Shown here piece by piece: positions 2,592 to 5,004 of a DNA stretch of 32,968 bases. Source of the stretch: Candidatus Saccharimonadota bacterium (GTDB lineage Bacteria; Patescibacteriota; Saccharimonadia; Saccharimonadales; Saccharimonadaceae). The position numbers were made by a program, and so were the translations under genes. Under the pieces are notes generated by a model. It was not told the DNA's origin. It saw only the letters and a list, made by a program, of their open reading frames with translations, and searched no databases. Within the stretch, counting starts at the first letter, position 1; the number at the start of each line of letters is the position of its first letter. Location: positions 1 to 32,968 of the forward strand of contig RZYF01000005.1 in assembly GCA_010014665.1 (NCBI GenBank). The letters run 5' to 3'.

Positions 2592-2656
2592 TATGGGTGA
2601 TTAGCTCAGTTGGGGAGCCATCAGCGAAAAATAATGCGCACGCTCTAGCCAACTGA
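2592..2656 (+). other. tRNA-Val leader element 1: copy of the tRNA 5' end plus inverted D-arm
   Basis: TATGGGTGATTAGCTCAGTTGG (2592-2613) repeats 2686-2707. CGCTCTAGCCAACTGA (2641-2656) is the exact reverse complement of 2700-2715 in the tRNA. Confidence 0.8.
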
Positions 2657-2688
2657 ATATGGTATGCTAAATCTGGCGATAAAATTAT

Positions 2689-2765
2689 GGGTGATTAGCT
2701 CAGTTGGCTAGAGCGCACGATTCACATTCGTGAGGTCGCAGGTTCGAGCCCTGCATCGCCCACCA
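2689..2765 (+). tRNA. tRNA-Val (anticodon CAC), CCA encoded
   Basis: Cloverleaf: GGGTGAT/ATCGCCC acceptor, GCTC/GAGC D-stem, CACGA-TTCACAT-TCGTG anticodon arm, GGTTCGAGCC T-arm, ACCA end. Confidence 0.95.
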
Positions 2766-2777
2766 TAGTTTGTGTGA

Positions 2778-2783
2778 TATAAT
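2778..2783 (+). promoter_or_regulatory. Extended -10 promoter (TGATATAAT) ahead of the second tRNA-Val leader element
   Basis: TGnTATAAT between the first tRNA-Val and the second leader element, about 14 nt before the mimic. Confidence 0.5.
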
Positions 2784-2796
2784 AATTTTCACGCAT

Positions 2797-2856
2797 GGGC
2801 GCTTAGCTCAGTTGAAAAGTCATCAGCGAAAACAATCGCAATATGCTCTAGTCAAC
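2797..2856 (+). other. tRNA-Val leader element 2: copy of the tRNA 5' end plus inverted D-arm
   Basis: GGGCGCTTAGCTCAGTTG (2797-2814) repeats 2902-2919. GCTCTAGTCAAC (2845-2856) complements tRNA GTTGGCTAGAGC with one G.U pair. Confidence 0.78.
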
Positions 2857-2901: not shown

Positions 2902-2978
2902 GGGCGCTTAGCTCAGTTGGCTAGAGCACCTCGTTTACACCGAGGGGGTCGGGGGTTCGAGCCCCTCAGCGCCCACCA
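2902..2978 (+). tRNA. tRNA-Val (anticodon TAC), CCA encoded
   Basis: GGGCGCT/AGCGCCC acceptor, CCTCG-TTTACAC-CGAGG anticodon arm, GGGTTCGAGCCC T-arm, ACCA end. Confidence 0.95.
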
Positions 2979-2987
2979 AAAGAAACG

Positions 2988-3010
2988 CCTGGCAAGTTGC
3001 CAGGTTTTTT
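2988..3010 (+). terminator. Rho-independent terminator after the tRNA-Val pair
   Basis: CCTGGCAA-GT-TGCCAGG hairpin (approximate split) followed by TTTTTT. Confidence 0.85.
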
Positions 3011-4670: not shown

Positions 4671-4800
4671 AGAACACAGTCCTTTTCATATACCTCAACT
4701 ATAGCATAAGTACTTACAACGCTCCATATATCTTGAAAAAAACGCCTCCATAACCTACAATACATCTCTGTACTCTTAACAAAGATTGCATTCAAGCTGT

Positions 4801-4996
4801 ATTTATAAGAGTTGGCGGCTACGTGAAACGCAAGTTAATCGTAGACGCGAGTGCGTTGTCCGAGATGACAAAAAAACTAATCGTACATTGATAGCTTTAT
4901 TTATAAGAGTTGGCGGCTGCGTGAAACGCAAGTTAATCGTAGACGCGAGTGCGTTGTCCGAGATGACAAAAAAACTAATCGTACATTGATAGCTTT
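4801..4996 (+). repeat. Two tandem 98-bp repeats immediately upstream of tRNA-Leu, with D-arm-like sequence
   Basis: ATTTATAAGAGTTGGCGGCT... at 4801 and again at 4899, nearly identical. A third repeat start (ATTTATA at 4997) runs straight into the tRNA-Leu. Confidence 0.92.
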
Positions 4997-5004
4997 ATTT
5001 ATAC

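Follow-up and report, generated by a model that had tools for sequence, protein, structure and literature searches.

Why should a tRNA gene be preceded by a partial copy of itself and by a strand complementary to its own D-arm? The question is raised by the tRNA-Val(CAC) gene of a Candidatus Saccharimonadota bacterium, located in a 32,968-nucleotide stretch (the window) that forms one contig of a draft genome of 928 kb (G000); relatives of this genome belong to a single CPR order. An earlier note had reported a 5' mimic of the tRNA and an exact 16-nt anti-D-arm upstream of this gene; the coordinates proved exact, and the layout is repeated at independent loci. The locus reads as follows:

2592..2613, + strand: TATGGGTGATTAGCTCAGTTGG, comprising TAT and, at 2595-2613, the mimic itself, which copies tRNA-Val(CAC) positions 1-19; the whole is identical in letters to 2686-2707
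2614..2640, + strand: conserved core insert GGAGCCATCAGCGAAAAATAATGCGCA, with the motif GAGCCnTCAGC and an A-rich loop, from an alignment of 23 cores
2641..2656, + strand: antisense CGCTCTAGCCAACTGA to the real D-arm (tRNA sequence index 12-27), the exact reverse complement of TCAGTTGGCTAGAGCG at 2700-2715
2657..2688, + strand: spacer, in which GCTAAATC is partly complementary to GATTAGC of the mimic and tRNA, and TGGTATGCT is an extended -10-like site at about 2660-2668
2689..2765, + strand: tRNA-Val(CAC), intact, with CCA encoded (ARAGORN and RF00005)

The antisense can also pair with the mimic, as the earlier note had it, namely with the mimic block at 14-19 and through GAGC/GCTC with the insert, the antisense N20-A being bulged. 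Because the mimic pairing leaves this bulge, the antisense complements the real tRNA better than it does the mimic.

In a locus-based survey of the tRNAs of the source genome the same leader layout was found before tRNA-Val(TAC) (2797-2901, in the window), tRNA-Val(GAC) and tRNA-His, with variants before Lys, Thr(GGT) and Leu tRNAs. Every copy mimics its own tRNA (GGGTGAT in Val(CAC), GGGCGCT in Val(TAC), GGGCGGT in Val(GAC) and GCGGATG in His). The window holds the following further features:

2778..2783, + strand: TATAAT, candidate -10 of the second leader, 19 nt before the second mimic
2797..2815, + strand: second mimic, of tRNA-Val(TAC) positions 1-19, 18/19 identical (G19 to A)
2816..2843, + strand: second core AAAGTCATCAGCGAAAACAATCGCAATA, matched by the covariance model CM R1 at 2806-2860 (E 3.3e-13)
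2844..2856, + strand: second antisense TGCTCTAGTCAAC
2902..2978, + strand: tRNA-Val(TAC) (ARAGORN)
2987..3005, + strand: intrinsic terminator closing the Val(CAC)-Val(TAC) pair
4795..5003, + strand: leader of tRNA-Leu(GAG), related but different, with 2.1 tandem copies of a 98-nt unit containing Leu D-arm-like segments and CUGCGUGAAACG

The second antisense forms an A-U pair with the changed A19 of its mimic and only a G-U with the real tRNA, which makes the Val(TAC) leader a counter-example to the preference of the antisense for the tRNA where mimic and tRNA disagree. No terminator-like site was found in the window between tRNA-Val(CAC) and tRNA-Val(TAC). Elsewhere in the genome CUGCGUGAAACG recurs in the leaders of Leu(CAG) and Ser(GCT), and a class A RNase P RNA lies directly 3' of tRNA-Pro(GGG) (L027:983-1395, minus strand), which places RNase P in the source genome.

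A scan of relatives did not bear out absence of the element; its presence is patchy but widespread, and patchy even inside one genus: in the same-genus genome G002 both tRNA-Val(CAC) and its mimic have the acceptor sequence GGGGAAT, and the tRNA-Val(CAC) of G001 carries no element. The core pattern GCTCANNTGGNNAGCCNTNAGC gave 20 matches in 16 of 296 family genomes, each upstream of a tRNA matching it, and the reversed control pattern gave none in the same 296 genomes. CM R1, built from 23 cores, detected the element in 32/296 family genomes (15 of 61 genera), in 21/199 genomes of the order, and in 4/290 genomes sampled across the phylum, all four belonging to the window's own family. A combined core-plus-antisense pattern, for which less than one chance match is expected by our estimate, was found 26 times in 25 stretches over 85,488 prokaryote species, exclusively in CPR bacteria. 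Each of the 26 matches copies the 5' half of an intact tRNA that lies 93-129 nt downstream, or 199 nt in the case of the outer copy of a tandem. The named records among them are mostly Saccharibacteria, with Peregrinibacteria, Gracilibacteria, Doudnabacteria and Nanosynbacter also represented; Nanosynbacter, to which one carrier record (L250, with a double element at Ile(GAT)) is assigned, is a genus with cultured members. The tRNAs carrying the leader include those for Val, Ile, Ala, Arg, His, Met, Thr, Lys, Gly and Pro. Furthermore, the longest exact complement to the D-arm region within the 160 upstream nucleotides reached 10-18 nt at 46 of 154 tRNA loci, a set enriched for matches so that this fraction is not a prevalence, as against at most 9 nt in shuffled upstream sequences.

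To define the anatomy of the leader we collected 51 distinct examples on 16 tRNA species. These show the order mimic, core (GAGCCnTCAGC), antisense, spacer and tRNA, with 77-139 nt to the tRNA and the antisense 18-61 nt before it; a second antisense piece, complementary to tRNA 1-12, occurs in the spacer of about 20% of loci. In all 51 the mimic corresponds to its own tRNA at positions 1-19 and then stops: agreement at acceptor positions 2-7 is 44-50/51 (permuted maxima 25-37) and falls to 6/51 at position 20 and 2/51 at position 21. The antisense complements the real tRNA at sequence index 14-28 only, with no complementarity beyond 29. Watson-Crick complementarity amounts to 44/51 at index 20 (permuted maximum 29), 46/51 at index 27 (34) and 33/51 at index 28 (25), and these are tRNA letters that the mimic does not contain; kinship of the loci inflates such covariation counts, and the signal spans tRNA species. 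Covariation between mimic and antisense is also present and is confounded, since the mimic copies the tRNA. Mimic and tRNA disagree in 19 cases, five of which stem from L135, where the mimic is aligned with a shift; the antisense sides with the tRNA in 18 and with the mimic in four.

Are these parts maintained, or are they remnants of rearrangement? The 30 nt upstream of the mimic and of the tRNA share 33% identity across the 51 leaders, whereas the mimic is 19/19 identical in 26 and 18/19 in 12 more, so that 38 of the 51 match at 18 or more positions. This divergence of the flanks around a near-identical 19-nt segment is our main argument, and as a sequence comparison it favours selection on the leader parts. 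The inner hairpin P2 of the core scored weakly better than shuffled sequences, and we do not claim it as conserved on so slight a difference. Likewise, we set aside selection for pairing of the mimic acceptor strand with the 3' strand, as 12 of 26 differences still pair and transition bias suffices to explain this.

Several other recurrent sequences were noticed near these leaders. By eye, many leaders with the element show GCACCUUU(C) at 14-34 nt ahead of the real tRNA (L006, L004, L076, L108, L112, L114, L117). Leaders of Met and Phe tRNAs are preceded, ahead of the mimic or the tRNA, by a recurrent hairpin with a AAATTGAnAGGAGG-type sequence (L110, L112, L113, L162), which is possibly another leader RNA. 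Also seen by eye was a T-box-like block, GGNGGNACC, on the opposite strand upstream of tRNA-Val(GAC) (L060, L065, L070, L071, L002), which suggests a divergent tRNA-responsive gene adjoining this tRNA. Finally, a minihelix GGGGTGAACCAGG..CCTGGATCACTCCACCA, consisting of an acceptor and a T-arm-like hairpin and ending in ACCA, is situated between Ala(TGC) and Ile(GAT) (L087, L098, L140).

The alternative to selection is an origin at the DNA level without leader function, whereby tRNA genes repeatedly gain partial self-copies (a sense copy, an inverted piece and the intact gene) through template switching or through insertion into tRNA loops of a small, structured mobile element that duplicates a long stretch of its target; the ordered appearance would then merely reflect survival of those events that spare the intact tRNA. 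A single template-switch accident, which the earlier note had offered as the simpler alternative, fails as a full explanation in the face of the recurrent layout, the conserved core and the CPR-wide occurrence. Such debris should hold no conserved non-tRNA sequence and decay neutrally, and the core is conserved across CPR classes. In favour of a repeated process is a second class of inserts. Some tRNAs in the genus of the window carry mimics that extend further, covering 1-23 up to 1-60, and contain inserts of other kinds. Among these is class II, about 93 nt long with several hairpins and a possible pseudoknot, which is present in leaders of Gly(GCC), Arg(TCG) and Leu(TAG). Its last hairpin shows compensatory changes (GGUCGCG/CGUGACC versus GGUCGCC/GGUGACC); when the Gly leaders of G000 are compared with those of G002, the mimic, in our reading, tracks a D-loop insertion and the antisense a changed anticodon stem. 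The class II insert (GUGAGAACUGCC..GUGACC) was found inside partial tRNA copies on both sides of intact tRNAs (L019, L197-L215 of G002, L261-L290), and its covariance model (CM R2) matched 69 of 199 family genomes with up to 13 copies per genome, a dispersal that speaks for the DNA-level process.

The same holds for the many class II copies that lie 3' of tRNAs in mirror-image order, namely tRNA, terminator, T-arm antisense and 3'-half copy (L006, L267, L269, L270, L273, L274, L276, L286, L287, L289, L290). In these 3'-half copies, often with CCA, the insert replaces the T-loop TTC. Copies beyond terminators are awkward for a pure leader switch and keep a DNA-level origin or role alive; at such sites a leader switch would require leaky termination. 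To this may be added a copy of tRNA-Glu, preceding the real gene, whose D-, anticodon- and T-loops all carry inserts (L279, about 1370-1800), a 3' partial tRNA-Phe copy downstream of tRNA-Phe with a reversed class II insert (L284), tandem leader units (L105, L106, L151, L153, L245), a 57-nt perfect direct repeat in L241, and the patchy presence of the element. Against this stand the 19-nt mimic and 15-nt antisense, which persist between randomised flanks where neutral debris should decay, the antisense that follows the tRNA across species, and the same core in Saccharibacteria, Peregrinibacteria and Doudnabacteria. On balance we consider a purely DNA-level origin unlikely, though deserving of serious weight.

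A leader acting on its own tRNA needs to be transcribed with it. Hexamers resembling a -10 element precede the mimic in 49% of loci and elementless tRNAs in 49% (17% in shuffled sequences), and those before mimics are spaced like those of ordinary tRNAs; 35% of loci have such a hexamer between element and tRNA. This pattern makes co-transcription of antisense and tRNA plausible for most loci. The case is weaker for the Val(CAC) locus of the window, where, as in Arg(CCT) (L104/L105), a -10-like site lies between antisense and tRNA. Indeed, the best such site for Val(CAC) is TGGTATGCT, 3' of the antisense, and transcripts starting there would exclude the antisense.

The internal sites, together with the stable leader hairpin, could also point to a separate small RNA, transcribed from the mimic promoter or released by an RNase P cut at the tRNA, which would act in trans either through binding of the antisense to the D-arm of its own tRNA or through titration of a tRNA-binding protein by the mimic. 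We judge this improbable, since there is no terminator-like site between element and tRNA in the window, the distance to the tRNA is kept at 77-139 nt, and the D-arms of mature tRNAs, being closed and modified, are poor antisense targets. A terminator/antiterminator in the leader was likewise rejected for the window, which has no terminator-like site between mimic and tRNA.

What might the leader do to the tRNA that follows it? The leader alone is predicted to form mimic:antisense hairpins. When leader and tRNA are folded together, the minimum-energy structure contains the real acceptor helix in 0 of 51 cases; in 41 of 51 the acceptor strand of the mimic is instead paired with the 3' strand of the tRNA, and the antisense holds the real 5' half. 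This trapped fold is on average 12 kcal/mol lower than leader and tRNA folded apart, by nearest-neighbour energies that ignore tertiary structure and modification of the tRNA. In the controls the real acceptor helix formed in 50 of 153 combinations with swapped leaders (mimic acceptor 0/153) and in 60 of 90 elementless tRNAs with their native upstream DNA. It was restored in 37 of 51 by cutting the leader 3' of the antisense, and was seen in 0 of 51 when the antisense was kept and the mimic removed. In folds of the growing chain the antisense is on the mimic in 40 of 51 before the tRNA emerges, and on the tRNA in 39 of 51 at tRNA nucleotide 24 and in 51 of 51 at nucleotide 28. By prediction, one strand thus has two mutually exclusive partners, as in a three-strand switch.

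Based on these comparisons and folding models, the best supported reading, which we hold tentatively as close to an even call, is that of a cis-acting, self-referential pre-tRNA leader functioning as a folding switch that would set the output of mature tRNA. The leader would consist of A (the copy of the tRNA's own 1-19 with the conserved insert) and B (the antisense of 14-28), followed by the tRNA, A'. During transcription B is predicted to pair first with A and to move to A' as the latter emerges; B would leave A for A' because A, without letters 20-21, is the weaker partner. After this transfer the sole free 5' acceptor strand is predicted to be the copy, on which the 3' half of the tRNA would close; the product would be a chimeric cloverleaf, with a long hairpin enclosing the real 5' half. 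We infer a regulated competition in the cell between two states, the real tRNA with a closed leader hairpin and the chimeric or trapped precursor, with transcription speed, RNase P, a helicase or a core-binding factor possibly deciding the outcome and hence the amount of mature tRNA.

Such a switch accounts for the conservation of the antisense, for its siding with the real tRNA, for the mimic being the weaker partner and for the order in which the parts occur; conservation of the mimic acceptor would follow too, provided that the chimeric fold is real. The conserved acceptor strand falls outside the simple D-arm decoy that the earlier note had envisaged. Of the note's broader proposal, a choice between decoy and D-arm that might control tRNA maturation, the choice itself is strengthened by the covariation over 16 tRNA species, the siding of the antisense with the tRNA (18 versus 4 of 19) and the predicted exchange in 51 of 51. 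In energetic terms, a 12 kcal/mol trap counts against the switch: without some means of reversing it, it would be lethal where an essential tRNA has a single gene copy.

The chimeric cloverleaf, as the predicted minimum, invites an intron-like reading, in which the mimic would be a functional 5' exon, the RNA from mimic position 20 to position 19 of the second copy would be removed, and the antisense would serve as a splint or guide over the junction, covering 6 nt of the 5' exon and 9 nt of the 3' exon. It accords with this that the mimic ends exactly at 19, that the antisense spans 14-28 around that junction, that mimic 1-19 joined to 20-76 would give a canonical tRNA, and that promoter-like -10 sites precede the mimic with the spacing of ordinary tRNAs. 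However, every complete locus has an intact second copy, making splicing unnecessary, and where the copies differ the decayed one is the mimic (G2A in Val(GAC); scrambled 8-9 in Arg(CCT)). The element is also only about 95-125 nt in size, with no ribozyme-sized core and no Rfam match. RtcB (PF01139), the one ligase tested for, was absent in all 37 genomes searched. With the mimic decaying before the real copy and RtcB absent, we rejected the mimic as the 5' exon of a spliced tRNA; enzymatic splicing is disfavoured on this genomic evidence, and we give little credence to the intron-like reading as a whole.

Returning to the folding switch, the leader family has the appearance of a novel type of RNA switch acting on the production of tRNA, as far as comparative sequence and modelled folds can indicate. 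A wider formulation, possible if somewhat doubtful, is that of a CPR-confined mode of tRNA gene control in which each gene would carry its own competitor: the D-arm would be passed to the antisense, a chimeric giant tRNA would form on the copied 5' half, and its formation or resolution, sensed via the conserved core, would set the supply of mature tRNA, with the same logic implemented by several unrelated inserts (the class I core and the Lys-, Leu- and class II types). Control of bacterial tRNA genes is generally ascribed to promoters and processing, and no leader of a bacterial tRNA is known to us that both copies and opposes the tRNA it precedes; in the open-access literature on Saccharibacteria, tRNA leaders and CPR tRNA introns we found no description of such a leader. 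If the reading is correct, it would represent a new RNA-switch principle, would mean that tRNA supply can be regulated gene by gene in host-dependent ultrasmall bacteria, and would offer a direct test of how nascent tRNAs escape misfolding. If the origin lies instead at the DNA level, an unusual engine multiplies and disrupts tRNA fragments around CPR tRNA genes. On either reading this is a sizeable undescribed feature of CPR genomes.

How does the leader relate to known systems? An Rfam scan of 12 leader loci (E up to 5) recovered tRNA, RNase P and chance matches only, so that no known RNA family in Rfam was matched by these leaders. Remnants of integrase att sites resemble them in placing a partial tRNA copy beside an intact tRNA; here, however, the copies lie about 100 nt apart with no integrase between them, the 5'-half copy has a fixed endpoint, and an antisense block is present. 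Short-range template-switch mutations (quasi-palindromes) share the sense-antisense-sense layout, but do not predict a conserved non-tRNA core or long-term covariation, both of which are present here. Group I introns in bacterial tRNA genes likewise use a guide complementary to both sides of a tRNA junction; our elements, at about 95-125 nt, have neither a P3-P7 core nor an Rfam match, and a complete tRNA follows in every complete locus, excluding assignment to that class. In the archaeal tRNA introns and split tRNAs that have been reviewed (PMC4090602), tRNA halves are joined via intervening helices and introns move between tRNA genes, whereas the genomes here are bacterial, lacked RtcB in all 37 searched and always retain the intact gene; introns have been mentioned in CPR rRNAs (PMC10714607).

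The closest parallels are leader RNAs with alternative folds. T-box riboswitches also deal with tRNA sequence in this manner, but their ligand is an uncharged tRNA, recognised in trans through its anticodon and acceptor end, and the genes under their control are synthetase or amino acid genes. The present leader sits on the tRNA gene itself with a 5'-half copy and an anti-D-arm, and none of the 12 leader loci scanned matched the Rfam T-box model, on which ground a T-box identity was rejected. Attenuators and riboswitches with three-strand exchange similarly offer one strand, B, to an upstream A or a downstream A', with the order of transcription deciding between them. In attenuators, however, the downstream structure is a terminator or a ribosome-binding site, whereas in the leader described here it is the tRNA itself, and A is a literal copy of A'.
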